44,344 nt of DNA from Alicyclobacillaceae bacterium (lineage in GTDB: Bacteria; Bacillota; Bacilli; Alicyclobacillales; Alicyclobacillaceae): positions 1 to 44,344 of the forward strand of contig JADGIC010000004.1 of assembly GCA_019683615.1 (NCBI GenBank). Reading direction: 5' to 3'. The notes under the pieces were generated by a model. That model was not told the DNA's origin. It saw nothing but the letters and a program-made list of their open reading frames with translations, and did not search any database. Shown piece after piece: positions 16,013-39,180 of the stretch (the stretch's first letter is position 1; every line of letters begins with the position of its first letter). Position numbers and translations under genes: made by a program.

Positions 16013-16052
16013 AGATCACAGCAGACAAAACCGCAAGAATGGAGGAGTGCAG

Positions 16053-17285
16053 GTGAAGCGCATGAAGCGGAGCATGGCGGCGTTGGCCAGTGTGAGTCTC
16101 GCAGGCGTGCTGGTGCTCGCCGGTTGTGGCGGGATCGCTGGCAACAGCGGCACGGCCGGCAACGGCGGGACAGGCAACACGGATACCGGTGAAGGGGCCG
16201 CCAAGGTCAATTCGCAGGTGCCGGTGCTCAAGTACACGCCGAAGAAAAAATCCGGTTTCATCATCGGGTTCAGCAACGGCTATTTCGGCAACACGTGGCG
16301 TGCCCAGTACGTTGACGACGCGCAGCAGGAAGCGAACAAGTTTATCAAGGCTGGCATTGTGAAGAAATTCATCGTCCAAAACACGAATGGCGTACCCGCG
16401 CAAATTGCCGCCGTCCAGAGCCTGATCAACCAAGGCGTGGACGCGCTGATTATCAACCCAGCATCGTCCAGCGCGCTCGCTCCGGTTGTCGCCAAGGCTG
16501 TCAAGCAAGGGATCCTGGTCGTCATCGACGACGATCCGGCGACATATCCCAACACCATCAACGTGACAGGCGACAACTACAACTTCTGGAAGATCCAAGC
16601 GGCCTGGATTGCCAATCAGTTGCATGGCAAGGGCAACATCGTTTGGATCACCGGTTTGGCCGGCAACTCCGCGGATGAGATCCGACAGCAGGCAGCGACC
16701 GACGTGTTGAAACATTACCCGGGCATCAAGACGCTCGCCAAGGTGCCGGGCGGCTGGAACGAGACGCAGGCCCAAAACGCGATGTCGACTCTGCTTGCGG
16801 CGTACAAGAACATCGACGGGGTCCTCGAGCAGGACGTGATGGCGCAGGGCGTGATCAACGCGTACGTCGCCAACAAGCGGCCGTTGCCGATTATGACTGG
16901 TGACTATACGTTCGCGTTCCTGCGCGAATGGAAACAGAAGTACCCGAACCTGCGGACGATGACCGTCCCCTATGCGCCCGGTGTGGCGGCTAACGGGGTC
17001 GGCGTCACGGTGCGCCTGCTGCAAGGCTACAAGTTGAAGCCGTCGGCTCTTTCGCCCAACCCGCTGGATCCCTCCCTGCGCAACACCATCCTGTCGCCGC
17101 CGCCGTACGTGGTGACGAAGACCGCGCAGCCGAACGCGCCTTGGATGAAGGGGCTCGACCCGCGGACAAAGGCCATTGGCTTGGACGAAGCGTTGAAGTT
17201 GGGCAAAGGCAAACCGGACAGCGCGTCGCTCGACGCGTACTGGACGGACAAGCAGTTGGACGCCTTGTTCTACCCGAAAAAGTAA
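16053..17285 (+). CDS. Sugar-type ABC importer, substrate-binding lipoprotein
   Basis: Captures the substrate outside the cell for the importer that follows. The GTG at 16053 is 7 nt after GGAGG; a GTG at 16047 is too close to it. The 410-aa product has a basic start, a hydrophobic stretch and the lipobox LAGC with Cys25, then a Gly/Asn/Thr-rich linker, as in Gram-positive lipoproteins. The mature part is a type I periplasmic-binding fold (Peripla_BP_4, ribose/rhamnose/AI-2-binding family): KSGFIIGFSNGYFGNTWRAQ, QGVDALIINPAS, VVIDDDPATYPNTINVTGDN. Family ligands include pentoses, deoxysugars, polyols and AI-2; the ligand here is unknown. It is the first gene of the operon. Confidence 0.9.
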   Translation: MKRMKRSMAALASVSLAGVLVLAGCGGIAGNSGTAGNGGTGNTDTGEGAAKVNSQVPVLKYTPKKKSGFIIGFSNGYFGNTWRAQYVDDAQQEANKFIKAGIVKKFIVQNTNGVPAQIAAVQSLINQGVDALIINPASSSALAPVVAKAVKQGILVVIDDDPATYPNTINVTGDNYNFWKIQAAWIANQLHGKGNIVWITGLAGNSADEIRQQAATDVLKHYPGIKTLAKVPGGWNETQAQNAMSTLLAAYKNIDGVLEQDVMAQGVINAYVANKRPLPIMTGDYTFAFLREWKQKYPNLRTMTVPYAPGVAANGVGVTVRLLQGYKLKPSALSPNPLDPSLRNTILSPPPYVVTKTAQPNAPWMKGLDPRTKAIGLDEALKLGKGKPDSASLDAYWTDKQLDALFYPKK

Positions 17286-17408
17286 GTCGCCCAATGGCCG
17301 GCTGACCGGCCGCGGGTGAGAATGTGGGATCCGGGTCCGGGGCCGACCGGCGGAGGCACTGCCGCCGGGCGGCCCTGGCCGGTCCCTCACCGGTTGGGAG
17401 GAGACCGC

Positions 17409-18902
17409 ATGCGTCTGTTTGAGTGCCGGCACATTGCCAAGCGTTACGGGTCGGTCGTGGCGCTGCAGGACGCTTCAATCACAGTGGAACGCGGTGAAAT
17501 TCGGGCGATCCTGGGCGGCAACGGATCAGGCAAAAGCACGCTCTCCAAGATCATTGGCGGCGCGGTGGCGCCGGACTCCGGGGAGATGTTTCTCAACGGC
17601 CAGCCGTATCGGGTTCACTCTCCCGCGCAGGCGAAGCGGCACCGGGTGGTCTTCACCTCCCAGGAACTGAGCCTGCTGACGAACCTGACGGTTGAGCAGA
17701 ACCTCGTCCTGCCGCAGATCCCGGCCAAAGCTGGCGTCCTTCTCGACCGCAAGGCCATGCGCCGGTCGGCGCAGGCGGTCTTGGACCGGCTGGGTCTGGC
17801 CGACATTGCGGGAATGCCGGCGGCCAGTTTGCCGCCCAACCGGCAGTTTATGGTCGAGTTTGCGAAAGCGTTGCTGCAGCAGCCGGAACTGTTGATCATC
17901 GACGAAATCACGTCAGCCTTGTACCGGGAAGATGTTGAGGTCTTCAAGCAGGTGGTGCGCGAACTGAGCGCGCAAGGGTGCGGCATTCTGTTCATTTCGC
18001 ACCGCATGCCGGAGATTTTCTCGTTGTGCGACACCGTCACGGTGATGAGAAACGGGGTTGTGGTGGGCGACCACCGCGTGGACAGTGTAGATGAAGATAG
18101 GCTCTTGGAGTTGTTGACCGGAGACAGACAGACAACGGATCGCCAGGCGGCCCCGCGCGTACAGGTGCACGACGGGCAGGTGCTGCTGTCCGTCAAGGGG
18201 TTGAAGCTGCCGGGCTATGCTCACACCCTTGACTTCGAGGTGCGCAAGGGCGAGGTCATCGGCATTGCAGGGTTGCAGGGACAGGGACAGTCGCAGTTTG
18301 TGCGCGCTCTGTTCGGCATGTACGGGCCTGTGGAGGCTGTCATTGACAATGAGAAGCGGGTCATTCGCTCGCCGCGGGAAGCGGTTCGCGCCGGGCTGGC
18401 GTTTCTGTCGGGCGACCGTGAGCGCGAGGGCGTGTTCGCCCGCCGGTCGATTGCGGAAAATCTGAAAGCGGTCAGTGACGGCGCGTTGGGCAACAAGGGA
18501 CTTCCGGTCGTTGATGTGCTCCGCCAAGTTGGGGCCAAATACGGCAAGGTGACAGATCCTGTTGTGTCGCTGAGCGGTGGCAACCAGCAGAAAGTGATCA
18601 TCGGACGGTGGACGTCTGTCCAACCGAAGCTGCTGTTGGCTGACGATCCGACCAAGGGCATTGACGTCCAAGCCAGGCACGACGTCCACCTGATCTTCCG
18701 GGACCTCACCCGTGAGGGGTCGGCGGTCGTGTTGGTCTCCAGCGACGACGAGGAACTGGTCAACATCGCCCGGACCGTGGAGCAGTCCCGGATCATCGTC
18801 ATGTACGGGGGCCGTTTTGTGAAGGCGTTTGCCGGCGCTGACGTTACCGTCCAAGACATCATTGAAGCCTCCATTCCGCGCCGGGAGGGTACCCACGGAT
18901 GA
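17409..18902 (+). CDS. Sugar-type ABC importer, double ATP-binding protein
   Basis: Drives import by ATP hydrolysis; RbsA/MglA/LsrA-type with two fused nucleotide-binding domains (497 aa, the usual length). ATG 17409 follows GGGAGGAG. Domain 1 has Walker A GGNGSGKST (36-44) and Walker B LLIIDEITSAL, but its ABC signature is degenerate (ASLPPNRQF). Domain 2 has the degenerate Walker A GLQGQGQSQ common in this family, and a good signature LSGGNQQKV (about 388-396) followed by LLADDPTKGID. Such asymmetry is common in the family, and two composite sites probably form with one strong and one weak. It overlaps the first permease by 4 nt. Confidence 0.94.
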   Translation: MRLFECRHIAKRYGSVVALQDASITVERGEIRAILGGNGSGKSTLSKIIGGAVAPDSGEMFLNGQPYRVHSPAQAKRHRVVFTSQELSLLTNLTVEQNLVLPQIPAKAGVLLDRKAMRRSAQAVLDRLGLADIAGMPAASLPPNRQFMVEFAKALLQQPELLIIDEITSALYREDVEVFKQVVRELSAQGCGILFISHRMPEIFSLCDTVTVMRNGVVVGDHRVDSVDEDRLLELLTGDRQTTDRQAAPRVQVHDGQVLLSVKGLKLPGYAHTLDFEVRKGEVIGIAGLQGQGQSQFVRALFGMYGPVEAVIDNEKRVIRSPREAVRAGLAFLSGDREREGVFARRSIAENLKAVSDGALGNKGLPVVDVLRQVGAKYGKVTDPVVSLSGGNQQKVIIGRWTSVQPKLLLADDPTKGIDVQARHDVHLIFRDLTREGSAVVLVSSDDEELVNIARTVEQSRIIVMYGGRFVKAFAGADVTVQDIIEASIPRREGTHG

Positions 18903-19849
18903 ACACCCGCTTCAGCTTGAAACGTTTTCAGGCACTGCCGTCGCTGTTGTTGGTGTTGTTGTTTGTGGTCATCGACGCGTTTCTGATTCCGCACTTCCTG
19001 AGCGACGCGTACGCGTCCAGCTTTTTCACGTCCTACACGCCGTTGATCCTGCTCACCATCGCAGAAACGGTGGTGCTGATTGGCGGCGGCATCGACATTT
19101 CCATCGGGAGCATCGTGTCGCTGGTCAACGTGACCTGGGTGACGCTGGGAGGCGCCGGTTGGGGGTTCTGGAGTTCGCTGGTCGTCTCTCTGTTGGCTGG
19201 CCTGGCCATCGGCGTGCTGAACGGCGCTGTCGTAGCCTGGCTGCGGGTCAGTCCGCTGTTGGTGACATTGGCGACATCGTCGATCGCGGGCGGCCTGGCG
19301 CTGTGGATCATGCCGTATCCGGGCGGGAGCGCTTCCGCCAACCTGGTGACGTGGTATCAGGCGACGTTCGCCGGGATTCCGGCGCCGCTGTTGTTCGTGG
19401 TCATCGCGTACCTCCTGTGGCTGGGCTGGGCACTCACGCCGTGGGGGCTGCGTTTGTTCGCGATGGGCAACCACATGCACAAAACGTACGTATCCGGGGT
19501 GCCTGTCGCCAGCATCCAGTTCGCGACCTACGTGTTCTCCGCACTGGTAGCGGGCATTGCGGCGATTGCCGTCACCGCCAACACTGGAGCGGGCGATCCG
19601 ACCATCGGCGCCACGTATACGCTGTACGCCATCGCGGCCGCGGTGATCGGCGGCGTTTCGCTGAACGGGGGCGTCGGCACCGCTGCAGGGGCCATCTTTG
19701 GCTCCATCTTCCTGGGCTTGGCGTTCTCGACCGTGTACGCTGCGAACATGCCGTCGTTCTACCAAGATCTGACGTCTGGCGCCATTGTGCTGTGCGGGAT
19801 CATTTTCGCCTCGCTCACCAAATTGCGCCGGCGCAGGCAGTTCGCGTAG
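18899..19849 (+). CDS. Sugar-type ABC importer, permease 1
   Basis: Integral membrane subunit of the importer (BPD_transp_2/RbsC family), 316 aa, mostly hydrophobic with about eight to ten membrane segments. The hallmark segment ETVVLIGGGIDISIGSIVSLVNV is the conserved cytoplasmic-facing GGIDLSVG motif. A second conserved block is AAAVIGGVSLNGGVGTAAGAIFG. ATG 18899 overlaps the ATPase stop (ATGA), indicating translational coupling. It pairs with the second permease 24 nt downstream, so the channel is probably a heterodimer. Confidence 0.93.
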   Translation: MNTRFSLKRFQALPSLLLVLLFVVIDAFLIPHFLSDAYASSFFTSYTPLILLTIAETVVLIGGGIDISIGSIVSLVNVTWVTLGGAGWGFWSSLVVSLLAGLAIGVLNGAVVAWLRVSPLLVTLATSSIAGGLALWIMPYPGGSASANLVTWYQATFAGIPAPLLFVVIAYLLWLGWALTPWGLRLFAMGNHMHKTYVSGVPVASIQFATYVFSALVAGIAAIAVTANTGAGDPTIGATYTLYAIAAAVIGGVSLNGGVGTAAGAIFGSIFLGLAFSTVYAANMPSFYQDLTSGAIVLCGIIFASLTKLRRRRQFA

Positions 19850-19873: not shown

Positions 19874-20887
19874 GTGAAAGGGCGTCCGGTTGAGTTGAAC
19901 GACGCCGCGGTGGCGGGAGCGGGCCGAAACATCCGCCTGCGCTTGGCGAACAGCAAATTCCGCATCTACATTCCGGTGCTCTCGGCGAGCGTGGCGCTGC
20001 TCATCCTGGGCCAGATCTTGAGCCCGGGTTTCGCCAGCGCGAGCAACATCGGCAACCTGCTGGCGACAGCGGTGGTGCTCGCTATCGCTTCGTTCGGGCA
20101 GACCTTGGTCGTGATTTCCGGTCAGGAAGGAATTGACCTGTCCATCGGCGCGATGATGTCGATGGGCGCGCTGATCGGTGTACAGGTGTCGGACCAGTCG
20201 TCTCTTGGCTTGTGGGGAGCGGTGCTCCTGCTGATCGGCACGGGGGCCCTCGTCGGGCTGATTCACGCCGTATGCATTCAGTTCCTGCGGATTCCGCCGC
20301 TCGTCATGACGCTGGGCATGGCGACGGTGGTTGACGGGTTCGCTCTTGCCTATACGAAGGGGCTGCCCAGCGGGACTGCGCCCAAACTGCTCACGGCCAT
20401 CGGCATCGGCCATGTGGGACCGATTCGCACGCTGCTGCTGTTCGGTATCGCGATGGTCGTAATTGGCGAGTTTGTCCTACGGCGCACGCGTTACGGGCGC
20501 AACCTGTACCTGGCCGGGAGCAACCGGATGGCCGCGGCGTTGTCCGGCATTCATGTCAACGTGGTGGTGTTCGTGACGTACGTGATCGCCGGGATTGCAG
20601 GCACGCTGGGCGGCTTGGTGATGCTCGGCTTCGTGGGCACCGCGCAGCTTGGCATGGGGGACGGGTATACGCTGCTGTCGATTGCAGCGGTCGTCATCGG
20701 CGGGACGGCGTTGGCAGGCGGCGAAGGGACGTTCCTGGGATCGGCGTTGGGCGCCGTGGTGCTGACCATTCTGACCAGCGTGCTGTTGGCCGTCGGCATG
20801 CAGGAGGGTGTCCGCGAACTGATTCAAGGCGCCATCCTGCTGTTGGTGTTGGCGATTTATTCCCGCGCGCCAAAGCTCAGGCAGTGA
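19874..20887 (+). CDS. Sugar-type ABC importer, permease 2
   Basis: Second, distinct BPD_transp_2 permease (337 aa, GTG 19874 after AAGGAGGGG). It has a longer hydrophilic N-terminus than permease 1, then multiple membrane segments. The family motif appears as TLVVISGQEGIDLSIGAMMSMGAL and again as AAVVIGGTALAGGEGTFLGSALG. Two different permeases with one double ATPase is the architecture of the Lsr (AI-2) and rhamnose importers, unlike the ribose importer with one permease type. The stop lies just inside an upstream frame of the next gene but before its preferred start. Confidence 0.93.
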   Translation: MKGRPVELNDAAVAGAGRNIRLRLANSKFRIYIPVLSASVALLILGQILSPGFASASNIGNLLATAVVLAIASFGQTLVVISGQEGIDLSIGAMMSMGALIGVQVSDQSSLGLWGAVLLLIGTGALVGLIHAVCIQFLRIPPLVMTLGMATVVDGFALAYTKGLPSGTAPKLLTAIGIGHVGPIRTLLLFGIAMVVIGEFVLRRTRYGRNLYLAGSNRMAAALSGIHVNVVVFVTYVIAGIAGTLGGLVMLGFVGTAQLGMGDGYTLLSIAAVVIGGTALAGGEGTFLGSALGAVVLTILTSVLLAVGMQEGVRELIQGAILLLVLAIYSRAPKLRQ

Positions 20888-22539: not shown

Positions 22540-23394
22540 GTGGTCGACAACGACAAGGTGATGGTCGTCGGCGCGGGCCAAATGGGCAGCGGCATCGCTC
22601 AGGTGTGCGCGGCTGGCGGTTACGAGGTGGTGTTGGTCGACGTCAGCGAGGAGGCAGTGGCTGCGGGCGTCGAGCGCATTCGGCGGTTTATGGACGAAGG
22701 TATCCGGCGCGGCAAGGTCACGCCCGAACAACAGCGGGAGGTGCTGGCGAGGATTCGCCCGACGACCCGCATGGAGGACGGGCGGGATGCGTTTTTGGCG
22801 CTGGAGGTGGTGACTGAGCGCCTCGACCTGAAGCTTGAGGTGTTCCGCCGCCTGAGCGAGGCGTGTGACGGACAGACGATGTTCGCGTCCAACACGTCGA
22901 CGTACTCCATTACGAAACTCGCTTCGGTGACGGACCGGCCGGAGCGGACGGTGGGCATGCATTTCTTCATCCCCGTACCTTTGATGAAGCTCGTCGAGGT
23001 GATCCCCGGTCTGTTGACCAGTCCGGAGACCACCGAGGCGGCGAAACAGGTGGCCGTTCGCATTGGCAAGACGCCGGTAGTGGCGCCGGACACGTCGGGT
23101 TTCATTGTCAACCGGCTGCTGGTGCCGATGTGGAACGAGGCGATGTACCTGGTCATGGAGGGGGTCGATCCCGCCGCCGTCGACACCGCGGCGAAGCTGG
23201 GTGGAAACCTGCCCATGGGTCCGCTGGAACTGGCCGACTTCGCGGGGCTCGATACGGTGCTCGCAACCATGCAGGAGATGTTCGACTACTTCGGCGATCC
23301 CAAGTACCGGCCGTGCCCGCTTCTGAAGAAGAAGGTGGACGCCGGGATGTACGGGCGCAAGACGGGCCAAGGGTTCTACACGTACCCGCGGTGA
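22540..23394 (+). CDS. 3-hydroxyacyl-CoA dehydrogenase
   Basis: Oxidises an L-3-hydroxyacyl-CoA to the 3-oxoacyl-CoA with NAD. The 284-aa product is the short HBD/FadB2 type: NAD-binding [20 protein letters not shown] at the N-terminus, SNTSTYSIT with the conserved Ser, the catalytic His and Glu in [15 protein letters not shown] (about 140-153), [10 protein letters not shown], and the C-terminal dimer domain ending [12 protein letters not shown]. An Ile replaces the Asn that normally follows HFF (HFFNPVP), and APDTSGF replaces the usual AxDxPGF, which hints at an altered substrate pocket. It is followed by thiolase, as in butyrate and acetoacetyl-CoA pathways. Confidence 0.92.
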
Positions 23395-23440
23395 GCCGGT
23401 GCCGCGCCGGCCAGCGGGAAAACAGCCAGGAGGGACGACG

Positions 23441-24619
23441 ATGAGGGATGTCGTGGTTGTAGACGGCGTGCGGTCCGCGATTGGATCGTTCGGCAAGGCG
23501 TTCAAGGATGTGCACGTCTCGGATCTCGGGGCGAAGGTGTTGGCGGAAGCCATTCGGCGCAGCGGGGTTGCGCCCGAGGAAGTGGAGGAAGCTGTCTTCG
23601 GTTGCGTCGGGCAGTTTGCCGAGAACGCCTTCATCGCCCGGATGATTGCCCTGAAGGCCGGGATGCCGGTGTCCAGCACGGCGCTGACCGTCAACCGCCT
23701 GTGCAGCTCCGGACTGCAGGCGATTGTCACCGCGGCGCGCACCATTCAGGCGGGCGACGCCGACGTGGTGGCGGCCGGCGGTGCCGAGAACATGAGCCAG
23801 TACCCGTACTACGTGCGCGGCGCGCGGTGGGGACTGCGGCTCAGCCACGGGCAGTTTGAAGACGGGTTGTTGATTGCCTTGTCCGACCCGTTCAAGGGTT
23901 ACCAGATGGGCGTCACCGCCGAAAACCTGGTGCGCAAATTCGGGATTTCCCGCGAGGACCAGGACCGATTCGCTTACCGCAGCCAGGTGAACGCCGCCCG
24001 CGCCATCGCCGAAGGCAAGTTCAAGGAAGAGATCGTGCCGATCGAGGTACGAGAGAAAAAGGCCGTTCGGGTTGTCGACGAGGACGAGCACGTGCGCAAA
24101 GACACTACTTATGAAAAGCTGGCTCAACTGAAGCCGGCGTTTGAGGACGGGGGCACCGTGACGGCCGGCAACTCGTCGGGCATCAACGACGCAGCGGCGG
24201 CTTTGATCCTGATGAGCGCCGAGGCGGCCCGCGCGCGCGGGCTGCGGCCGAAGCTGCGCTTTGTGGACTACGCCGTCAGCGGCGTGGATCCGGCCATCAT
24301 GGGCTACGGGCCTGTCGACGCGATCGCGAAAGTGCTGCGCAAAGCCGGACTGTCGTTGGACGACATCGGCCTGATTGAGCTGAACGAGGCGTTCGCCGCC
24401 CAGGCGTTGGCGGTGATCCGCGGCGCTGGCCTGGATATGGAGCGGGTCAACGTGAACGGCGGCGCAATCGCGCACGGCCATCCGATTGGCGCGACAGGGG
24501 CGATTTTGACGATCAAATTGATGAACGAGATGATCCGGACCGGCACGCGCTACGGAATGGTGACGCTGTGCATCGGCGGCGGGCAGGGCTTGGCTGCCAT
24601 CTTCGAAAACATTGCCTGA
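23441..24619 (+). CDS. Thiolase (acetyl-CoA C-acyltransferase)
   Basis: Cleaves a 3-oxoacyl-CoA with CoA to acetyl-CoA and a shortened acyl-CoA; it can also run in the synthetic direction. ATG 23441 after CCAGGAGGG gives 392 aa, the standard length. The nucleophilic Cys is in NRLCSSGLQAI (about Cys88), the catalytic His in NGGAIAHGHPIGATGA (about 348), and the second Cys in LCIGGGQG (about 378), so all three are present. GNSSGINDAAAAL and IELNEAFAAQ are further signatures. With the dehydrogenase just upstream it forms the last two steps of a beta-oxidation spiral. The operon has no enoyl-CoA hydratase. Confidence 0.94.
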   Translation: MRDVVVVDGVRSAIGSFGKAFKDVHVSDLGAKVLAEAIRRSGVAPEEVEEAVFGCVGQFAENAFIARMIALKAGMPVSSTALTVNRLCSSGLQAIVTAARTIQAGDADVVAAGGAENMSQYPYYVRGARWGLRLSHGQFEDGLLIALSDPFKGYQMGVTAENLVRKFGISREDQDRFAYRSQVNAARAIAEGKFKEEIVPIEVREKKAVRVVDEDEHVRKDTTYEKLAQLKPAFEDGGTVTAGNSSGINDAAAALILMSAEAARARGLRPKLRFVDYAVSGVDPAIMGYGPVDAIAKVLRKAGLSLDDIGLIELNEAFAAQALAVIRGAGLDMERVNVNGGAIAHGHPIGATGAILTIKLMNEMIRTGTRYGMVTLCIGGGQGLAAIFENIA

Positions 24620-24638: not shown

Positions 24639-25385
24639 ATGACAGGTACTTCCGCGCTGCAACAGCTGCGCGACTTGTTCGCCCATGCGAAGGTGGTCGA
24701 CCTCTCCCCGCTGTTGGAAAACGGGATTCCGCGCTGGCCCACACACCCGCCGTTGGTGATTGACCCGACCGTCACCCACGAACACGACGGCTACTATTGC
24801 CAGTCGGTGTACATGGCGGAGCACACCGGGTCGCACGTGGACGCGCCTCACCACATCCACGCCGACATGCCGGAGGCGACGGTCGAGCACATTCCGCCCG
24901 CCGCATTGATTGGGCCGGCGACCGTCGTCGACCTGTCCGATCGCCAGTGGCAGCCGGGCGAACGGGCAACGCTGGCGGACGTCAAGCGCTGGAGCGAACG
25001 CACGGGGGTGCAGGTGGAGCCTGGGGACATCGTGTTGTTCCACTTCGGATGGTTGCGGCGCTATTGGACGACGTCGGGGGCCTGGAAGCGGTATGCGTAC
25101 AACCAGCCCGGCTTCGCGGAAGACCTGGCCGACTTCGTCATCGAGACAGGCGTCCGTGCTGTGGGAACCGACACCGTTGCGGTGGGTACGCCGGTCGTCG
25201 ACGGCAACCAGGAGCGCTGTTACTTCCACGAGCGCGTGCTCAGGCGCCACATTTACTTGATGGAGTGCCTCGACAACTTGGACCAACTGCCGCCAAAGTG
25301 TTTTTTCATCGCAGCGCCGTTGAAAATCAAGCGGGGATCGGGATCGCCCATCCGCGCCATCGCACTGATCCCCGAAGCGAGGTGA
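24639..25385 (+). CDS. Cyclase-family hydrolase 1 (kynurenine-formamidase-like)
   Basis: A metal-dependent hydrolase of the PF04199 fold, whose members open N-formyl amides (KynB), isatin and similar ring amides. ATG 24639 follows GAGGTG and gives 248 aa. The metal motif HTGSHVDAPHH (about 61-71) matches HxGTHxDxPxH. PGDIVLFHFGW and GTDTVAVGTPVVDGNQERCYFHERVLRRHIYLMECLDNL are also typical of the family, with His and Glu near the C-terminus. No tryptophan-degradation genes lie nearby, so kynurenine formamidase is unlikely. I infer a hydrolase acting on an amide, lactam, lactone or ketone in this pathway. Confidence 0.85.
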   Translation: MTGTSALQQLRDLFAHAKVVDLSPLLENGIPRWPTHPPLVIDPTVTHEHDGYYCQSVYMAEHTGSHVDAPHHIHADMPEATVEHIPPAALIGPATVVDLSDRQWQPGERATLADVKRWSERTGVQVEPGDIVLFHFGWLRRYWTTSGAWKRYAYNQPGFAEDLADFVIETGVRAVGTDTVAVGTPVVDGNQERCYFHERVLRRHIYLMECLDNLDQLPPKCFFIAAPLKIKRGSGSPIRAIALIPEAR

Positions 25386-25391
25386 ACAGCA

Positions 25392-26153
25392 GTGGCCCTT
25401 CCGACCTATGAAGTTATCGCTCTGAAAATGGGCGAGCTGTACGTCGACAAGTCGACGCTCACGTACGCCCGGGACTTCGGGACCAAGCTGTGGATTCCCA
25501 TCTGGGCGGCAGCGATCGTCGGGAACGGGCTGAAGATTGTGGTCGACACGGGTATTCACGACGCGCAGTGGGTGAACGACCACATCGACCCGTGCCGCCA
25601 GGCCGACGACGAACGGATGGAGGCTGCGCTAAAACAGGCGGTGGGTTGGACTCCGGACGAGGTGGACATCGTCATCAACACCCACCTGCACTACGATCAC
25701 TGCGGGACGAATCCGTTGTTCAGGAACGCCCGTTTCTACGTCCACAAGCAAGAGTGGTTGCACGCCTTTAACCCGATTCCGAGCCAGCGTTGGATCTACG
25801 AAGATACGCGGTTCCTGTACGACTCCCGGGGTGTGAACTACTTCCAGTGGCAGTTCGTCGACGACATGGCGGAGGTGGCGCCCGGCATCAAACTGATTCA
25901 CACGCCAGGTCATTCCCCCGGCCAGCAGACGGTGCTGGTCAACACGAAGGAGGGCGTCCTGGCCATCGCCGCCGACATTTCAAACCTTGTCGAGAACATC
26001 AACGACGGGGTGCCGCCGGGGATCCTGTCGGACATGGCCCAGTGTTACGAGAGCCAGGCCAAGATCCGGGCTGTGGCGGACCGAATCTTGCCGGGGCACG
26101 ACCCGTCAATTGAGAAATACCAAAACAGCGGCTTCCCGCTGATCCGCAAGTAG
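25392..26153 (+). CDS. MBL-fold hydrolase, N-acyl homoserine lactonase-like
   Basis: A dinuclear-zinc metallo-beta-lactamase-fold hydrolase of 253 aa, starting at GTG 25392, 6 nt after the previous gene. All ligand motifs are there: HLHYDHCG (about 98-105), HTPGHSPGQ, AADIS with the bridging Asp, and LPGHD. The order and spacing match the AiiA/AttM lactonase group. IVVDTGIHD at the N-terminus is also typical. Family members open homoserine lactones or other gamma- and delta-lactones. Because it lies between two cyclase-family hydrolases inside a transport/CoA operon, a catabolic lactonase is more likely than quorum quenching, but neither can be excluded. Confidence 0.85.
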   Translation: MALPTYEVIALKMGELYVDKSTLTYARDFGTKLWIPIWAAAIVGNGLKIVVDTGIHDAQWVNDHIDPCRQADDERMEAALKQAVGWTPDEVDIVINTHLHYDHCGTNPLFRNARFYVHKQEWLHAFNPIPSQRWIYEDTRFLYDSRGVNYFQWQFVDDMAEVAPGIKLIHTPGHSPGQQTVLVNTKEGVLAIAADISNLVENINDGVPPGILSDMAQCYESQAKIRAVADRILPGHDPSIEKYQNSGFPLIRK

Positions 26154-26243
26154 GGCGGATGCCTTCGCCAGGGCGGGTTGTGAGGGTGGCGCCTCCGCTG
26201 CCCGCCTGCCGGCGGAGCGACCGTCCGCGCGGAAGGAAAAGGG

Positions 26244-27173
26244 GTGACGAGGGTGGCGAAAAGCGAGGTACAGAACCCGTACCGGAAGGCGTATCCCTTG
26301 AATGAAGTGGGCCGTGTGTACACGCAGGCGTCGACGGCCGCCGTGCTCGACGCCCTGAAGCTGGTCCGGCGCGGTTGGGTGTACGACCTGGGCATCGAGC
26401 GGTACCGGGGAATGCCGGTGCACCCCATCCACCCGCCGTTTGAGGTCATCGGCTACCGCACACCAACCGGTCTGATGAACGAGCGCGACCAAGCGTGGAT
26501 GGAAACAGGCAACGACGCGAACATGCGGGTGCTGAGCGAGGTGATCTTCGGCACCATGCACACGGGCACGCACATCGACGCGCTCGCGCACATCAGTTGC
26601 GGCGCGGACAACCACTGGTTTGGCGGGCATACGGCGGAGAAACACCTGGGGGACCGGGGACCGCTCAAAGCGGACGGCTCCAAGCTGGTGCCGATTGTCA
26701 CGCGCGGCGTGCTGCTCGACATCCCCCGGCTGCTCGGGGTGGATGTGCTGCCCGGCCACTTTGCGGTCGACGCCGGCGTGCTGGCGCGGGCCGCCGAGGC
26801 GCAAGGACTGGAGGTGCAAGCCGGCGACACCGTCCTCGTGCGCACTGGCTACCTGCAAAAGTGGCCTGGCGACGAAGCTCGCTCGTACTTCGGCTCCGGC
26901 CTCACGCTGGACGGTGCGCGCTGGCTGGCGGAGCGGGGCGTGGTCAACGTCGGCGGCGACAACGAGTCGCTGGAACAGATTCCGGCTGTGGATCCGCACA
27001 ATCCTCACCCGGTGCACACGTACTTCTTGATTGAAGAAGGCATCCATATTATGGAGTTCGTCAACGTCGAGGAGCTGGCCCGCGACCAGGTGTACGAATT
27101 CTTGTTCATCGCGGCGCCCTTGACAGTCCGCAACACGACCGGTTCGATGATCAATCCGATCGCGCTGGTGTGA
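26244..27173 (+). CDS. Cyclase-family hydrolase 2 (long form)
   Basis: A second PF04199-type metal hydrolase, 309 aa and about 60 longer than copy 1, with a different N-terminus (PYRKAYPLNEVGRVYTQAS). The metal motif is HTGTHIDALAHIS (from about residue 106), with Ala-Leu-Ala-His in place of the usual Ala/Pro-x-His. VNVGGDNESLEQIP and PVHTYFLIEEGIHIMEFVNVEELA are the conserved C-terminal blocks. The start is uncertain: GTG 26244 (after GGAAGG) or GTG 26253 (after AAGGGG). The two copies are clearly divergent, so they probably act on different bonds or intermediates. The 90-nt gap before it is the largest in this part of the operon. Confidence 0.85.
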   Translation: MTRVAKSEVQNPYRKAYPLNEVGRVYTQASTAAVLDALKLVRRGWVYDLGIERYRGMPVHPIHPPFEVIGYRTPTGLMNERDQAWMETGNDANMRVLSEVIFGTMHTGTHIDALAHISCGADNHWFGGHTAEKHLGDRGPLKADGSKLVPIVTRGVLLDIPRLLGVDVLPGHFAVDAGVLARAAEAQGLEVQAGDTVLVRTGYLQKWPGDEARSYFGSGLTLDGARWLAERGVVNVGGDNESLEQIPAVDPHNPHPVHTYFLIEEGIHIMEFVNVEELARDQVYEFLFIAAPLTVRNTTGSMINPIALV

Positions 27174-27232: not shown

Positions 27233-27997
27233 ATGATCGACCTGACAGGAAAAGTAGCGATTGTCACCGGGTCCGCGCGGGGGTTGGGCAGGGGCATCGC
27301 GCAGCGGCTGGCGCGCCAGGGAGCCACGGTGTACATCACGGATGTCAACGAGGCCGGCGTGCGCCAAACGGTCGACGAGTTGGCGGCGGAGGGGCTGTCG
27401 GTCCGCGGCCGGGTGCTGAACGTCGCCGACGAGGCGCAGGCTCGCCAGTGTGTGGAAGCGGTGCACGCAGAGCACGGCCGACTGGACATCCTCGTCAACA
27501 ATGCCGGGATCAACCGTGACGCCATGCTGCACAAAATGACCACCCAGCAGTGGCATGAAGTGTTGATGGTCAACCTCAACGGCGTGTTCTACATGACCCA
27601 GCCGGCGAGCCGCATCATGCGCGAACAGCGGTCCGGGCGGATTGTCAACATCTCCTCCGCGAGCTGGATGGGCAACGTCGGCCAGGCCAACTACGCGGCC
27701 GCCAAGGCGGGCGTCGTGGGGCTGACGAAGACAGCGGCGAAAGAACTCGCCAAGTACGGCGTCACGGCGAACGCCATCTGCCCGGGTTTCATCGAGACGG
27801 ACATGACGCTCGCCCTGAAGGACGTGAAGCTGCAGGGCCCGTTCGCCACGGCATGGGACCTGATGGTCTCCAAGGTGCCCATGGGGCAGGCCGGCAAGCC
27901 TGAAGACGTGGCGAACATGGTGGCGTTTTTGGCGTCGGACGAGGCGCGCTACATCACGGGCGAAGTGATCAACGTCGGCGGCGGGATGGTGCTTTGA
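27233..27997 (+). CDS. Short-chain dehydrogenase/reductase (FabG/PhaB-like)
   Basis: An NAD(P)-dependent oxidoreductase of 254 aa. ATG 27233 follows AGGGAGGAGAG; an upstream frame extension is ignored. Visible are the cofactor motif TGSARGLG (12-19), NNAGINRD, the Asn in NLNGVF, the active-site Ser in NISSAS and YAAAK (Tyr-x-x-x-Lys), so the catalytic tetrad is complete. The C-terminus YITGEVINVGGGMVL is typical of 3-oxoacyl or acetoacetyl-CoA reductases and of polyol or sugar-acid dehydrogenases. ITDVNEAG, with Asp after the second strand, suggests NAD(H). The direction is probably oxidation of a hydroxyl. It ends 3 nt before the second CoA-transferase. Confidence 0.92.
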   Translation: MIDLTGKVAIVTGSARGLGRGIAQRLARQGATVYITDVNEAGVRQTVDELAAEGLSVRGRVLNVADEAQARQCVEAVHAEHGRLDILVNNAGINRDAMLHKMTTQQWHEVLMVNLNGVFYMTQPASRIMREQRSGRIVNISSASWMGNVGQANYAAAKAGVVGLTKTAAKELAKYGVTANAICPGFIETDMTLALKDVKLQGPFATAWDLMVSKVPMGQAGKPEDVANMVAFLASDEARYITGEVINVGGGMVL

Positions 27998-28000: not shown

Positions 28001-29593
28001 ATGGGCCGCGGCAAGGTCGTGACAGTGCAGGAAGCAATGGACCTGATTCCGGACGGGGGCACGCTGGCGCTGGTCGGGTTCACTTTGATGGGCGCGTGCG
28101 AGTGTATCCTGACTGAAATCGAGCAGCGGTTTTTGACGCGGGGAACGCCGCGGGGGCTGACACTCGTACACGCGGCCGGCCAGAGTGACCGGGTGCGCGG
28201 CCTCGAGCACTTGGCGCACCCCGGTCTCCTGGACACGGTGATTGGCTCCCATTGGGGCCTGGCGCCGCGGATGAGCGAGCTGATTCACAGCGAGCAGGTG
28301 GCGGCGTTCTGCCTGCCCCAAGGCCAGATTGTCCACCTGTTCCGGGCGATGGCGAGTGGCAAGCCGGGAAACTTGTCCAAGGTGGGTCTGGGGACGTTCG
28401 TTGACCCGCGCGTCGAGGGCGGCAAGATCAATCGCCGGGCGAAACAGTCCGGGCGGGACCTGGTCGACGTCGTGACCATCAAGGGCGAAGAGTACCTGTT
28501 TTACAATCCGATCCCGCTTGACACCTGCCTGATTCGGGCGACGACAGCGGACTTGGCCGGGAACTGCACAATGGAGGAAGAGGCGGTCAAGCTGGAAGCC
28601 ATCTCCGTGGCGCAGGCGGTCAAGCGTTACGGCGGCAAGGTGATCGTGCAGGCGAAGTACTTGGCGGACGCCGGTACGCTGCATCCGAAGCAGGTGGTCG
28701 TGCCGGGCATTTACGTGGACGCGGTGGTGGTGGCTCACGACCCGGAGACAAACCATCGGCAGACGTCGTGTGCTGCCTTTGATCCGGTGTTCACGGGCGA
28801 TGTGCGGGTTCCCGAGACCGCGTTGACACCGTTGCCGCTGGCGCTGCGCAAGCTGATCGGCCGGCGGGGGGCGCTGGAGCTGTACCCGGGGGCGGTGGTC
28901 AACCTCGGTACGGGCATTCCTGGAGACACCATCGGTCCCATCGCCCAGGAAGAAGGGATTGGCCAGCGGATCACGCTGACTATTGAATCAGGGGTGATCG
29001 GAGGAGTGCCGATGGGCGGTGTCGACTTCGGGATTGCCAAGAACCCGGAGGCGATCATCGAACACGCGTACCAGTTCGACTACTACAACGGCACCGGGGT
29101 GGACGTCACGTTTATGGGGCTGGCGGAGTGCGACCGGTTCGGGAACGTCAACGTGAGCCGGTTTGGCAGCCGGGTGGCCGGTTGCGGCGGCTTCATTGAC
29201 ATCACCCAGCCCGCCAAGAAGTGCGTTTTTTTGGGAACCTTCACCAACGGCGGGCTGGAGGTGGCGGTCGAAGACGGGCGGCTGCGCATCGTGCAAGAGG
29301 GCCGAACGCCGAAGTTCGTGGCGGACGTCAGCCAGATCACGTATTCGGGCGAGTACGCGCGGCGTCACAACAAGTCGGTGCTGTGGGTGACGGAGAGAGC
29401 GGTGTTCGAGCTGCGCGAGGAAGGCATGGTGTTGACGGAGGTGGCTCCGGGCGTCGACATCGAGCGGGACATCCTTCGGCAGATGGCATTCCGGCCGGCT
29501 ATTGCCAAGGACTTAAAGGTGATCGACGCGCGCGTCTACCGGGACGGTCCCATGGGCATCGCGTCCGATCCGCGTTGGACCGGCGGATCGTGA
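28001..29593 (+). CDS. Fused acyl-CoA:carboxylate CoA-transferase, copy 2
   Basis: A 530-aa paralogue of the first CoA-transferase in the same operon. The two align along their whole length, sharing for instance HWGLAPRM, CLPQGQI, VGLGTFVDP, AGTLHPK and GCGGFIDITQ. The predicted catalytic Glu is Glu329 in LTIESGVIGGVPMGG. ATG 28001 lies 3 nt after the SDR stop with no strong ribosome site, suggesting translation by coupling. The N-terminus differs (TLALVGFTLMGACECILTEIEQ against VALAGFGGMAQPDEVLLAIRE), which is where substrate-pocket differences might lie. I infer that it activates a second acid released by the pathway, or recycles CoA. Confidence 0.9.
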   Translation: MGRGKVVTVQEAMDLIPDGGTLALVGFTLMGACECILTEIEQRFLTRGTPRGLTLVHAAGQSDRVRGLEHLAHPGLLDTVIGSHWGLAPRMSELIHSEQVAAFCLPQGQIVHLFRAMASGKPGNLSKVGLGTFVDPRVEGGKINRRAKQSGRDLVDVVTIKGEEYLFYNPIPLDTCLIRATTADLAGNCTMEEEAVKLEAISVAQAVKRYGGKVIVQAKYLADAGTLHPKQVVVPGIYVDAVVVAHDPETNHRQTSCAAFDPVFTGDVRVPETALTPLPLALRKLIGRRGALELYPGAVVNLGTGIPGDTIGPIAQEEGIGQRITLTIESGVIGGVPMGGVDFGIAKNPEAIIEHAYQFDYYNGTGVDVTFMGLAECDRFGNVNVSRFGSRVAGCGGFIDITQPAKKCVFLGTFTNGGLEVAVEDGRLRIVQEGRTPKFVADVSQITYSGEYARRHNKSVLWVTERAVFELREEGMVLTEVAPGVDIERDILRQMAFRPAIAKDLKVIDARVYRDGPMGIASDPRWTGGS

Positions 29594-29617: not shown

Positions 29618-30568
29618 ATGGACTGCACGAACAACGGGATCAACCGTGACAGCACCGCGCAGGCGGACGCAGGGCATGCGGCGGCGGACGAACGCTGGCG
29701 AATTGGCTTCATCGGCTTGGGCACCATGGGGCTACCCATGGTGCGCCGCATTTGTGAGGCCGGGTATGCGGTGACGGTGTGGGGCCGCCGCGAGCAGGCG
29801 GTCCGCCAAGCCGTCTCGTTCGGGGCCGTGCCTGCTGCCAGCGTTTCCGCGCTGGCTGCCCAGTGTGACGTGGTGTTGCTGATGGTGTCGGACGACGCGG
29901 CCGCCCGGGCGTTGGTTTGCGCAGACGACGGCTTGACGGCGCCTGGCGCACAGGTCCGGATGGTGGTCAACTGCACGACCGTCAGTCCGGACACGTCGCG
30001 TGCCCTCGCGGCGCACCTGGCCGGGCGCGGGGTGGGCTTTGTCGAGGCGCCCGTGACCGGCAGCCGGCCCCAAGCCGAGGATGGCACGCTGAACTTTCTC
30101 GTCGGCGGCCGGGCAGAGGATGTCGCCCGTTTGCAGCCGTTGTTGCGGACGATGGGCAAGAACGTGTTTCACCTCGGCGAGGTGGGACGAGCCAGCGCGG
30201 CGAAATTGGCGAGCAACGCGATTGTCGCGATGAATCTCGCGTCCCTGTTGGAAGGGCTGGCCATCGCCCGGCGGGCAGGCCTGGATGCCGAACTGTTCAC
30301 GCACATCCTGCAGCAAGGCGGTGCCCGCAGCGCCGTCTTGGATGCGAAGCGGCGCAAGCTGTTGGACCGAGACTTCGACCCACAGTTTGCGGTAAAGTGG
30401 ATGTGGAAAGACATTCGTTTGGCGCTGGCGTTGGCGGACGCCATGGACCTGCCGCTGACCGTACTGCCTCAGGCCGCCGGGTTGTTCCGGCGGGCGGTGC
30501 AAGAGGGCTGGGGAGACGAGGACGTCGCGGCGGTCATGCGCTGTTACGACACCTTGGAGCAGACATGA
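29618..30568 (+). CDS. 3-hydroxyisobutyrate/tartronate-semialdehyde-type dehydrogenase
   Basis: A beta-hydroxyacid dehydrogenase of 316 aa. After a nonconserved tail of about 26 residues comes the NAD-binding FIGLGTMGLPMVRRICEAGY, then the substrate-binding signature VEAPVTGSRPQAEDGTL and GRASAAKLASNA with the catalytic Lys (about 195). Family activities are oxidation of 3-hydroxyisobutyrate or 3-hydroxypropionate, and reduction of tartronate semialdehyde to glycerate (GarR/GlxR) or of succinic semialdehyde (GHB DH). The WGRREQA segment after the second strand has Arg-Arg, suggesting NADP(H). A glycerate kinase lies two genes downstream, which favours tartronate semialdehyde reductase, but this is inference. 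Confidence 0.88.
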   Translation: MDCTNNGINRDSTAQADAGHAAADERWRIGFIGLGTMGLPMVRRICEAGYAVTVWGRREQAVRQAVSFGAVPAASVSALAAQCDVVLLMVSDDAAARALVCADDGLTAPGAQVRMVVNCTTVSPDTSRALAAHLAGRGVGFVEAPVTGSRPQAEDGTLNFLVGGRAEDVARLQPLLRTMGKNVFHLGEVGRASAAKLASNAIVAMNLASLLEGLAIARRAGLDAELFTHILQQGGARSAVLDAKRRKLLDRDFDPQFAVKWMWKDIRLALALADAMDLPLTVLPQAAGLFRRAVQEGWGDEDVAAVMRCYDTLEQT

Positions 30569-30646
30569 CGGCGCGGCGCCAGCCGGATGGACGGAACCGG
30601 AAGGACCCCCGGTTCCAGCCGAATCCGACGAGAAGAGGGGATGGTC

Positions 30647-31642
30647 ATGGCGGAGCGGTTTCCCGCGTGGTTCGCAGACCGCAACGACAGCGGCTTCCGG
30701 GTGGAACGCCGGGAGATCACGCTGGACGACCTGATGCCCGGCGACGTGACGGTCCGGGTGCAGTACTCGAGCGTGAACTACAAAGACGGGTTGGCCTCCA
30801 CGCCGGATGGCAAAATTGTCCGGACATACCCGATGGTTCTGGGCATCGAGCTGGCCGGGGAAGTGGTGGCGTCCCAGGACGACCGGTTTTACCCGGGGGA
30901 CGCGGTTGTGGTGGCTGGATTTGGCCTGAGCCAGACTCACTACGGCGGGTACAGCCGTTATGCCCGGGTACCGGCCGATTGGGTCGTCCCCTTGCCGGAC
31001 GGGTTGTCGCCGCGTGAGGCGATGGCGATTGGCGTGGCCGGGTTCACCGCCGGCATGGCCGTCGAAGCCTTGCGCCGCCACGGCACCGGTCCCGAGGACG
31101 GACCCGTGCTGGTGACGGGAGCCTCCGGCGGCGTCGGAAGCGTGGCGGTGGCGCTGCTGGCGCGCCTGGGCTACCAGGTGATCGCGAGTTCCGGCAAACC
31201 GGAAGCGGCTGACATGCTGCGCCGGTTGGGCGCGCACGAAGTGATGGACCGCGCCCTGCTGATGGGCGACAGCGGCAAGTCGCTCGAACGAGAGCGGTGG
31301 GCGGCCGCCATCGACCAGGTGGGCGGGCGGACGCTGGCCAACGTACTCAAGTCCATCCGCCACGGGGGCGCCGTGGCGCTGACCGGACTGGTGGGCGGAA
31401 GCCGTCTTGAGACCACCGTGTTTCCTTTCATTCTGCGCGGCGTCAGCCTGATTGGCATCGATTCCGCGTACTGCCCGATGCCGCTGCGGCGCGAGCTGTG
31501 GCGGCGGTTTGCCAACGAGTGGAAGCTGGCGTCGGAGCAGTGGTCGGCGATTGCTCGCGAGATCTCGTTTGACGATTTGCCTGACGCACTGCAGGCGATT
31601 CTGCAAGGCCGCGTGACGGGGCGGATTGTGGTGCGCGTGTGA
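30647..31642 (+). CDS. Acrylyl-CoA reductase-type quinone oxidoreductase (AcuI/YhdH family)
   Basis: A zinc-free medium-chain reductase of 331 aa. ATG 30647 lies 6 nt after AGAGGGG; ATG 30641 is too close to it. The AcuI/YhdH family signs are SSVNYKDGLAS near residue 45, MVLGIELAGEVV, GYSRYARVPADWVVPLP and the nucleotide-binding GASGGVGSVAVALLARLGY. Characterised members reduce acryloyl-CoA to propionyl-CoA with NADPH, removing a toxic electrophile. Here it probably reduces an alpha,beta-unsaturated CoA ester or ketone in the pathway. No acryloyl-CoA-producing enzyme such as a DMSP lyase is seen nearby. Confidence 0.88.
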   Translation: MAERFPAWFADRNDSGFRVERREITLDDLMPGDVTVRVQYSSVNYKDGLASTPDGKIVRTYPMVLGIELAGEVVASQDDRFYPGDAVVVAGFGLSQTHYGGYSRYARVPADWVVPLPDGLSPREAMAIGVAGFTAGMAVEALRRHGTGPEDGPVLVTGASGGVGSVAVALLARLGYQVIASSGKPEAADMLRRLGAHEVMDRALLMGDSGKSLERERWAAAIDQVGGRTLANVLKSIRHGGAVALTGLVGGSRLETTVFPFILRGVSLIGIDSAYCPMPLRRELWRRFANEWKLASEQWSAIAREISFDDLPDALQAILQGRVTGRIVVRV

Positions 31643-32862: not shown

Positions 32863-33588
32863 TTACGGCTGTTCGTTGGCCCGCCACTCCGGATCCCCGT
32901 CGGCGTAATACTCCTTCTTCCAGATGGGAACCTCCGCTTTGAGGCGTTCAATCAGCGCGCGAGCGGCAGCGAACGCCTCCTCCCGGTGGGGGGCTGAGGC
33001 GGCGCAGACGACCGCCACATCCTTCGGGTGCAGGCGGCCGATGCGGTGCCACATCACCGTCTGCACGCCGGGCCAGCGGCGTTTCACGTCGTCCGCGATT
33101 GCGCGCATCTTCGCCAGCGCCATTTCCCCGTACGCTTCGTATTCAAGGTACAAGGTCTGGCGTTGGCCGGTCCATTCGCGGACGGTTCCCGCAAACACCA
33201 CAACGCCGCCGTGTGCGGGATGGCACAGCCTCCGCCAGGCGTCGTCCGGTTGCAGCGGGAACGCTGTCAGCCACTGGTCCGGCCAGTCTGCGGGCGAGGC
33301 GGGGGCCGCCGTGCCAGCGGCTTGGTTGTCACCGGCTTGTGCATCGCCGCCGCCGACCGGCGGAATCAGGGCAATTTCCGACGCTGTGCTGAGCTGCCGC
33401 TGCTCGTCGGCGTACTCCCGGTCCACCGCGACCAGCGCCCGCTCAATCAACGCCGACGCTTGCGGGTACTGGCGCGCCAAAGCCGCTTTCAGGTCGGCCG
33501 GCCGTGCCCCGTCGGGAACGGACACCGTCACCTCGCGCGCCCCCAGCGCTTCCGCCAAGCCGGCGAACAGCCGCACCTTGACCAGCAC
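32863..33588 (-). CDS. MoaD-MoaE fusion (molybdopterin synthase in one chain)
   Basis: Molybdopterin synthase inserts sulfur into precursor Z; MoaD carries the sulfur on its C-terminal Gly-Gly and MoaE is the catalytic subunit. This 241-aa chain has a MoaD ubiquitin-like domain (1-81) ending IPPVGGG, an Ala/Asp/Pro-rich linker (82-100), then MoaE (about 102-241) with GGVVVFAGTVREWTG, HRIGRLHPKDVAVV, SAPHREEAF and VPIWKKEYY with the active-site lysines. The Gly-Gly must be freed to work, so cleavage after it is expected. Such fusions (MoaX) are known in mycobacteria. GTG 33588 follows AAAAGGAG by 9 nt. Confidence 0.93.
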   Translation of the reverse strand: MLVKVRLFAGLAEALGAREVTVSVPDGARPADLKAALARQYPQASALIERALVAVDREYADEQRQLSTASEIALIPPVGGGDAQAGDNQAAGTAAPASPADWPDQWLTAFPLQPDDAWRRLCHPAHGGVVVFAGTVREWTGQRQTLYLEYEAYGEMALAKMRAIADDVKRRWPGVQTVMWHRIGRLHPKDVAVVCAASAPHREEAFAAARALIERLKAEVPIWKKEYYADGDPEWRANEQP

Positions 33589-33628
33589 TTATCCCACTCC
33601 TTTTCCGTCGTGTGCAGTCACCACTCCG

Positions 33629-33658
33629 ATTGTAGTGCGGCACGGGCCGCCAGGACAA
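33629..33658 (-). promoter_or_regulatory. Promoter of the moaDE fusion
   Basis: On the minus strand, TTGTCC (33658-33653) and TACAAT (33634-33629) are separated by 18 nt, about 40 nt upstream of the GTG start. Confidence 0.6.
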
Positions 33659-33779
33659 CTCCCGGCGCCGTTGCGCGCAGATTGTGGGATCAGATTGCGG
33701 TATAATCGAAACCAGCCAGTTTGCAACGGAATCGGCCGGTTTGTCGCGCAGGATTTCCCAGGCGAAGGAGCGGGTGGGT

Positions 33780-34721
33780 GTGATCTTCGTCGACAGCGTG
33801 GTACCGAGTGACGTCGTGGCGTGGCTGCGCCAGCAGGCGGACGAGGAGGTGGTTGTGCGGCGGCGCGAGCAAAGCCTTTGGGAGCAGGCCGCGGGCGCGG
33901 ATATCGTCATCGCCCACGCGAGCGAAGGCTACCGTTCGCTGTTGGTTGCGTCGCCAGCGCTGCGGTGGTTCCACTGCCTGAGCGCCGGGGTCGAGGGGCT
34001 GCCGTTCGCTGCCTTGGCGGAGCGAGGGGTGGTGGTGACCAATTCGAGCGGCATTCACACCACCCAAATGGCCGAGCAGATCATCGGCTTTATGATCATG
34101 TTCACGCGCGGCCTGCAGTTGAACGTGCGCAACCAGATGCAGCACCGCTGGGAGCGGAGTTATCCGCTCGGCGAGCTGGCCGGACAGACGCTGTGCATCA
34201 TCGGGGCCGGCCGGATTGGCCAGGAGTTGGCGCGCAAGGCGAACGCGTTCGATATGCGCGTCGTCGGAGTGAAGCGGGAGCCGGAGCCGCTGCCCTTCTT
34301 TCACGACGTGCTGCCCGCCGATCGCCTCCACGACGCGCTGCGCGAGGCGGACTTCGTCGTGGCGCTGACTCCGCTGACCGCCGCCACCCGCCTCCTGTTC
34401 GGAGAACGAGAGTTTCGGGCGATGAAGCCGTCGGCTGTGTTTCTCAACTTCGCGCGCGGCGGCGTCGTGGATGAAAGCGCCTTGGTTGACGCGTTGCGGC
34501 GCGGCATCATCCGGGGTGCCGGACTGGACGTGTTCGAAACGGAACCGCTGCCGCCGGACCACCCGCTGTGGTCCCTGGACAACGTCGTCATGTCGCCGCA
34601 CAATGCGGGCAATATCCCCGACTACCACGCCCGCGCCATCCGGCTGTTTGTCGACAACTACCGGGCGTACCGGACGGGCCGGCCGCTGCCGAATGAAGTC
34701 AACTTGGCGCTCGGTTACTGA
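33780..34721 (+). CDS. D-isomer-specific 2-hydroxyacid dehydrogenase
   Basis: Reduces a 2-oxoacid such as glyoxylate or hydroxypyruvate to the D-2-hydroxyacid, or the reverse. GTG 33780 is 9 nt after GAAGGAG and gives 313 aa starting MIFVDSVVPSDVVAWL. The NAD(P) domain has IIGAGRIGQELARKANAF (from about residue 140), with VKREPEP after the next strand; Lys-Arg there suggests NADP. The catalytic triad is present: Arg in NFARGGVVDE, Glu in FETEPLPPDHP and His in MSPHNAG. A perfect TATAAT (33701-33706) lies upstream without a clear -35. It is divergent from moaDE and ends 6 nt from the convergent glcD-like gene. Confidence 0.92.
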   Translation: MIFVDSVVPSDVVAWLRQQADEEVVVRRREQSLWEQAAGADIVIAHASEGYRSLLVASPALRWFHCLSAGVEGLPFAALAERGVVVTNSSGIHTTQMAEQIIGFMIMFTRGLQLNVRNQMQHRWERSYPLGELAGQTLCIIGAGRIGQELARKANAFDMRVVGVKREPEPLPFFHDVLPADRLHDALREADFVVALTPLTAATRLLFGEREFRAMKPSAVFLNFARGGVVDESALVDALRRGIIRGAGLDVFETEPLPPDHPLWSLDNVVMSPHNAGNIPDYHARAIRLFVDNYRAYRTGRPLPNEVNLALGY

Positions 34722-36095: not shown

Positions 36096-36137
36096 GGCGT
36101 ATCGCTTCCTTCCGGGATGAATGTCATGGATGCGCGG

Positions 36138-38555: not shown

Positions 38556-38609
38556 GCGCGTGTCACCCCCGTCGGCAGAATTCGAGGAAGGTTGTGTCGT
38601 GTGACCGCG

Positions 38610-39008: not shown

Positions 39009-39074
39009 CGGAGGTCCTCCTCGCTCGGCGCGCCGTGACCGTGGTGGGCCGTGGCACGATGCGGTTTTGTACCT

Positions 39075-39177: not shown

Positions 39178-39180
39178 GCT

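Follow-up and report, generated by a model that had tools for sequence, protein, structure and literature searches.

Organization of the locus

The analysed window, that is, the whole 44,344-nt stretch at positions 1–44,344 of contig JADGIC010000004.1, belongs to a 2.4-Mb, 85.6 % complete assembly of an Alicyclobacillaceae bacterium. It contains three intact ORFs in a row, all in the same direction (+ strand): a PF04199 hydrolase with a KynB/isatin-hydrolase fold (cyclase 1; 24639–25385, 248 aa; Pfam E value 1.3e-35, 123.1 bits), an AiiA-like metallo-beta-lactamase-fold hydrolase (MBL; 25392–26153, 253 aa; Lactamase_B, E value 1.5e-20) and a second, long-form PF04199 hydrolase (cyclase 2; 26244–27173, 309 aa; Pfam E value 2.8e-24, 86.4 bits). 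The first-pass annotation had described three consecutive hydrolases here, the two cyclases being divergent from one another; the Pfam assignments (PF04199/Lactamase_B/PF04199) and a cyclase 1/cyclase 2 identity of 27 % bear this out. The assembly carries four PF04199 genes, two of them in this trio.

The trio constitutes genes 8–10 of a 15-gene, 16.8-kb operon (+ strand; intergenic spacing −4 to +90 bp). Behind a LacI-family regulator (14579–15658, + strand), the operon begins with a ribose-type periplasmic-binding protein (Peripla_BP_4; 16047–17285), followed by a two-domain sugar ABC ATPase (17316–18902), two ABC permeases (BPD_transp_2; 18899–19849 and 19874–20887), a FadX-like CoA-transferase (PF01144; 20884–22512), a 3-hydroxyacyl-CoA dehydrogenase (HBD; 22540–23394) and a BktB-like thiolase (23399–24619). 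Downstream of the trio lie a FabG-like SDR dehydrogenase (27233–27997), a second PF01144 CoA-transferase (28001–29593), a 3-hydroxyisobutyrate (HIBADH)/tartronate-semialdehyde-type dehydrogenase (29618–30568), an AcuI/YhdH-type reductase (30587–31642) and a glycerate kinase (PF02595; 31658–32803), the sole copy found in the 85.6 % complete assembly. The Pfam scan of the operon genes returned no CoA-synthetase, and tblastn searches of the window returned no homologue of an SMP-30-type lactonase (SGL) or of a beta-keto acid cleavage enzyme.

Past the operon end, convergent genes on the − strand encode a MoaD–MoaE fusion (32863–33588, immediately adjacent) and an FAD-linked oxidase of the glycolate/D-lactate dehydrogenase type (34728–36095). 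Hypothetical + strand ORFs at 32924–33811 and 34818–40278 had no Pfam match, and most were taken as shadow ORFs because several of them face − strand genes with Pfam matches.

Metal sites and family membership of the hydrolases

The MBL had been described as retaining all of its metal ligands, and this was upheld: the seven metal-site residues (H98, H100, D102, H103, H174, D195 and H236; HLHYDH, matching HxHxDH) are present, and each is kept in 55/55 of the homologous segments that cover it (55 of 56 segments per position, the 56 including one locus with a split match). The position of AiiA Tyr194, a residue with a catalytic role in that enzyme (PMC12388617, PMC11958948), is Asn198 in the MBL, and 50 of the 55 covering segments have Asn (41) or Ser (9) there. 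The MBL shares its fold family and metal ligands with AiiA, matching both the NCBIfam AiiA model NF045699 (E value 8e-36) and AiiA in the PDB (E value 2e-31), and NCBI labels its Caballeronia orthologues 'N-acyl homoserine lactonase family protein', all of which would suit an AHL lactonase that serves quorum quenching and sits in the operon by accident. However, its score against NF045699 (123.5 bits) is far under the equivalog cut-off of 375, the Tyr194 position is substituted as described, and the gene is steadily linked with sugar import and CoA chemistry. Since the catalytic Tyr is missing, the MBL is probably not a quorum-quenching lactonase, and we regard that role as extremely unlikely.

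The same position varies in additional MBL copies. Blautia schinkii and a Clostridiaceae MAG (L059:9998–11529 and L063:1898–3430) have tandem paralogues next to the genes of a ribose-type ABC transporter, with Gly in one copy and Asn in the other, while a second MBL in genome G295 (L116:15936–16661; 33 % identity), located beside cyclase 1, has Tyr.

Both cyclases pass the PF04199 gathering cut-off (123.1 and 86.4 bits against 23.1) and carry the KynB ligands, and both fall below the cut-off of the KynB equivalog TIGR03035 (64.1 and 25.9 bits against 223). The Zn ligands of KynB are H50, H54, D56, H161 and E173, with H60 acting as the base (PMC4243253). The ligand set of cyclase 1 is H62-x3-H66-x-D68-x3-H72 together with H197 and E209, whereas cyclase 2 has the motif HTGTHIDALAH together with H258 and E271. 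The DALAH segment had been taken as an altered metal motif, a description that we do not retain: H106, H110, D112, H116, H258 and E271 of cyclase 2 correspond to KynB H50, H54, D56, H60, H161 and E173, respectively, and are invariant in 9/9 aligned sequences (five cyclase-2-like and four cyclase-1-like). The sole departure from HxGTHxDxPxH is the replaced Pro, and members of the long PF04199 subgroup usually carry DALAH, DALCH or DSFAH, as represented by cyclase-2-like proteins of Shinella, Rhodococcus, Streptomyces and genome G526.

The best matches of cyclase 1 are isatin hydrolases, and its AlphaFold model (pLDDT 65.9, a moderate-confidence model used at fold level only) matched 5nna in Foldseek (2.7e-14). 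It is like isatin hydrolase and KynB in fold and metal ligands, but lacks the GLQC/GLAS signature of isatin hydrolases (PMC6117287), reading LMEC at the aligned position, and possesses the KynB-type Glu. The AlphaFold model of cyclase 2 was set aside (pLDDT 46.5, input alignment of four sequences). Its nearest solved relative is 5ibz (E value 1.1e-18), the esterase MGS0169, in which the ligands are altered to Gln, Gln (PMC5341072); cyclase 2 retains both His where MGS0169 has Gln-x3-Gln. MGS0169 and trans-dienelactone hydrolase provide PF04199 precedents for ester/lactone hydrolysis (PMC5341072).

A relative of cyclase 1 (46 %) on an Agrobacterium plasmid (L108:3150–12723) is accompanied by a RuBisCO-like protein, a four-carbon acid sugar kinase, an SDR and a sugar ABC transporter, a cluster that is a putative acid-sugar pathway, and another lies within a Rhizobium sugar cluster. 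Relatives of cyclase 2 are placed as follows: in Shinella, beside a ribose-type binding protein and near dihydroxyacetone-kinase-like genes; in Rhodococcus, beside an SDR gene; and in Streptomyces, beside genes for an acyl-CoA ligase and an acyl-CoA dehydrogenase. Given these neighbours, both cyclases appear to hydrolyse the lactones or esters of sugar acids; hydrolysis of an acyl-CoA or retro-Claisen cleavage is possible.

Distribution of the hydrolases across genomes

In a 300-genome sample of the class, the MBL was detected at 53–59 % identity in six other genomes, always clustered with a thiolase, two CoA-transferases and an SDR. A scan of named genomes added Alicyclobacillus fastidiosus, Sulfobacillus, Blautia and other Clostridia, the deltaproteobacterial symbiont of Olavius and approximately 30 Caballeronia/Paraburkholderia/Trinickia loci. 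Clusters in Alicyclobacillus, Heyndrickxia, G478, G295, G526, Sulfobacillus and several Clostridia combine the MBL with CoA-transferase, thiolase and SDR genes, mostly together with a ribose-type ABC transporter and LacI; in Heyndrickxia, two MFS transporters stand next to the MBL in place of the ABC genes. The Burkholderiaceae clusters follow the order GntR–SDR–beta-keto acid cleavage enzyme–MBL–binding protein–ABC–permease–HAD–SMP-30 lactonase. A glycerate kinase was found in 8/8 of the cluster genomes checked, within the cluster itself in four of the eight, compared with 5/14 control genomes encoding any. An AcuI homologue is also located behind the glycerate kinase in Alicyclobacillus suci (L031, L021). 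One clostridial cluster (L032:4860–13300) has MBL, sugar ABC, SDR and Dak1/Dak2-like kinase genes and neither a thiolase nor a cleavage enzyme; this is probably a different sugar-lactone route.

In a table of 26 clusters, the MBL is present in all 26, cyclase 1 in four (the window, G526, G295 and the Olavius symbiont) and cyclase 2 in two (the window and G526), although these counts are not unbiased frequencies because the MBL served as bait and the loci were hand-picked. The cyclase 1 orthologues of G526, G295 and the Olavius symbiont match at 64, 54 and 50 %, respectively. G526, a member of the same class but of an unrelated family, holds all three genes in one catabolic cluster (MBL 57 %, cyclase 1 64 %, cyclase 2 71 %) that also includes a glycerate kinase. 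Because orthologues of all three share this cluster, the co-occurrence of the trio is, as judged from gene content, more than chance. Among 399 sampled genomes of the class, cyclase 2 reached an E value of ≤1e-60 in the source genome and G526 alone; the idea that it is unique to the window, for which an earlier phylum sample had yielded matches of only 39 %, was dropped in view of the 71 % orthologue. An MBL-only operon occurs in Alicyclobacillus shizuokensis, A. fastidiosus, A. suci, G018, G478 and Heyndrickxia ginsengihumi, and these genomes carry PF04199 copies elsewhere, where PF04199 content was examined. The MBL is thus the predicted conserved core hydrolase of these clusters, and the two cyclases are optional extras.

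Comparison with characterized catabolic clusters

Two cleavage modules have been described for deoxyribonate oxidation by Price et al. 2019 (PMC6365646). That of Pseudomonas simiae consists of an SDR, a cleavage enzyme and a lactonase, the cleavage-enzyme type being found in Burkholderia also, while that of Klebsiella michiganensis involves CoA activation, HAD, thiolase, CoA-transferase, glycerate kinase and a lactonase; both yield glyceryl-CoA and require glycerate kinase, and the lactonase clusters of both species contain two MFS genes each (PMC6365646). Both of these interchangeable modules, the thiolase type and the cleavage-enzyme type, are seen among the MBL clusters, the likeness to P. 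simiae and K. michiganensis being one of enzyme classes and gene content, not of protein sequence orthology. The window resembles K. michiganensis M5al in that a single cluster brings together HAD, thiolase, CoA-transferase and glycerate kinase with a lactonase and transporters. It differs in having CoA-transferases, the MBL and a ribose-type ABC transporter where M5al has, respectively, a CoA-synthetase, a homologue of the P. simiae lactonase and two MFS genes, and it additionally encodes the two PF04199 hydrolases and the SDR, AcuI-like and HIBADH-like genes. Of the genes that mark the acyl-CoA type of deoxyribonate cluster, HAD, thiolase, CoA-transferase and glycerate kinase therefore lie together in the window, and a CoA-synthetase and an SMP-30-type lactonase are missing from the cluster. 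The Heyndrickxia cluster, with its two MFS genes, is like those of P. simiae and K. michiganensis in this respect, and the GntR–SDR–cleavage enzyme–lactonase order of P. simiae is matched by the MBL-bearing Caballeronia clusters; the window, in contrast, has a thiolase and CoA-transferases and no cleavage enzyme homologue found.

A second point of comparison is the phloroglucinol cluster of Clostridium scatologenes, which, in the excerpted account, comprises an SDR, a PF04199 cyclase, a 3-hydroxyacyl-CoA dehydrogenase, a cleavage enzyme, a thiolase and a CoA-transferase (PMC10470551). The window shares these enzyme superfamilies as far as that excerpt describes them, and a sugar importer, an MBL and a glycerate kinase go unreported in it. 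By analogy, cyclase 1 could be a C–C hydrolase that cleaves a carbocyclic 1,3-diketone, with HAD and thiolase degrading the product. We consider this very unlikely: the ribose-type ABC transporter, LacI and glycerate kinase suggest a sugar-like substrate, cyclase 1 is missing from most clusters, and tblastn found no beta-keto acid cleavage enzyme in the window.

Alternative roles for the trio

The first-pass annotation had proposed that the trio acts stepwise on a single compound, opening its several rings or acyl linkages. The presence of all three genes in one operon in the window and in one cluster in an unrelated family is consistent with this, as are multi-hydrolase clusters elsewhere (two MBLs each in the Blautia locus L059 and in L063; MBL, cyclase 1 and a second MBL in G295; MBL and SMP-30 in Caballeronia). 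However, neither cyclase accompanies the MBL in most clostridial clusters or in at least six from Bacilli, and cyclase 2 of G526 stands apart as a gene divergent from the binding-protein gene. The annotation had itself held that a concerted scheme would be unlikely if related genomes carried only one of the three in this operon without loss of function; on gene content, this is largely the situation in the six MBL-only sister genomes. Lactone opening by the MBL is the part of the proposal that is well supported by cluster content, whereas the idea that three concerted steps open a multi-ring compound sits poorly with clusters that mostly encode the MBL alone; since these lack either cyclase, we judge obligatory sequential action unlikely. 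A second and third hydrolytic step may nevertheless apply to some substrates, as two clusters (the window and G526) retain all three genes.

Alternatively, cyclase 1 and/or cyclase 2, or the MBL, could be the missing glyceryl-CoA hydrolase, acting after the thiolase or cleavage enzyme. This step of deoxyribonate oxidation is unassigned in GapMind (PMC9007349). The Olavius cluster combines cyclase 1 with a cleavage enzyme, with no CoA-transferase seen at the locus. Glyoxalase II, an enzyme with the MBL fold, is a 2-hydroxyacyl thioesterase. Nevertheless, the literature searched gave no PF04199 thioesterase, the two CoA-transferases of the window could do the same job, and relatives of cyclase 1 also occur in sugar clusters of the kinase type, where no CoA ester is evident, so that we find this assignment doubtful.

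Predicted pathway for a deoxy-sugar lactone

We favour, with a probability of roughly 0.55, a reading in which the trio is part of a sugar-lactone catabolic operon, supplying a core lactonase and two accessory hydrolases to a form of 2-deoxyaldonate catabolism particular to Gram-positive bacteria. The locus appears to be a real, conserved operon that would follow a known catabolic logic in altered form on a predicted substrate; that substrate, each of the reactions and what the two cyclases do are all inferred from sequence. The ribose-type ABC transporter would import a 2-deoxy-pentonolactone or its acid, 2-deoxy-D-ribono-lactone being our best guess. The MBL, a proposed deoxyaldonolactonase and, as the constant element of the clusters, the best candidate for this step, would open the lactone; a lactonase would go well with an importer of the sugar type, particularly in acidophiles, in which aldonic acids are expected to form lactones. 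A CoA-transferase would then activate the acid, the SDR and/or HBD would oxidise the 3-hydroxyl, and the thiolase would release acetyl-CoA, leaving glyceryl-CoA. Glycerate may be freed from the latter by a CoA-transferase or a hydrolase and passed into glycolysis by the glycerate kinase; a CoA-transferase can, we infer, recycle CoA by moving it from glyceryl-CoA to the incoming acid. As an alternative source of glycerate, a glycolyl-CoA route (glyoxylate carboligase, tartronate semialdehyde reductase and glycerate kinase) was considered less likely, as no carboligase scored above cut-off in the 85.6 % complete assembly. The cyclases would be accessory metal-dependent lactone/ester (possibly acyl-CoA) hydrolases that broaden the substrate range to gamma versus delta lactones, epimers and acyl or ester conjugates.

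A bolder version, which we hold to be rather improbable, is that the MBL represents a new sugar-lactonase clade (Asn for Tyr) and one PF04199 protein either the glyceryl-CoA hydrolase or its family's first sugar-ester/lactone hydrolase, in a widely distributed pathway that uses oxidised deoxyribose, for example from damaged DNA. Our literature search found no description of a cluster in which a sugar ABC transporter and a cleavage enzyme accompany this family of lactonases, and none of PF04199 sugar lactonases. In Price et al. 2019, the genetic demonstration of oxidative 2-deoxyaldonate catabolism is confined to Proteobacteria (PMC6365646). If right, the proposed pathway would extend this catabolism to Bacilli and Clostridia, including acidophile genera, would give a function to a widespread and probably misnamed clade of the 'AHL lactonase family', and would offer concrete candidates for the orphan step from glyceryl-CoA to glycerate.

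Several observations count against the deoxyaldonate scheme. The HIBADH-like and AcuI-like genes (29618–31642) have no place in it, the window lacks the SMP-30 lactonase and CoA-synthetase, and one clostridial cluster pairs the MBL and an SDR with dihydroxyacetone-kinase-like genes and no cleavage enzyme. Finally, the Caballeronia clusters contain both the MBL and an SMP-30 lactonase, and because the latter stands alongside it, the MBL may act there on something other than a simple sugar lactone.
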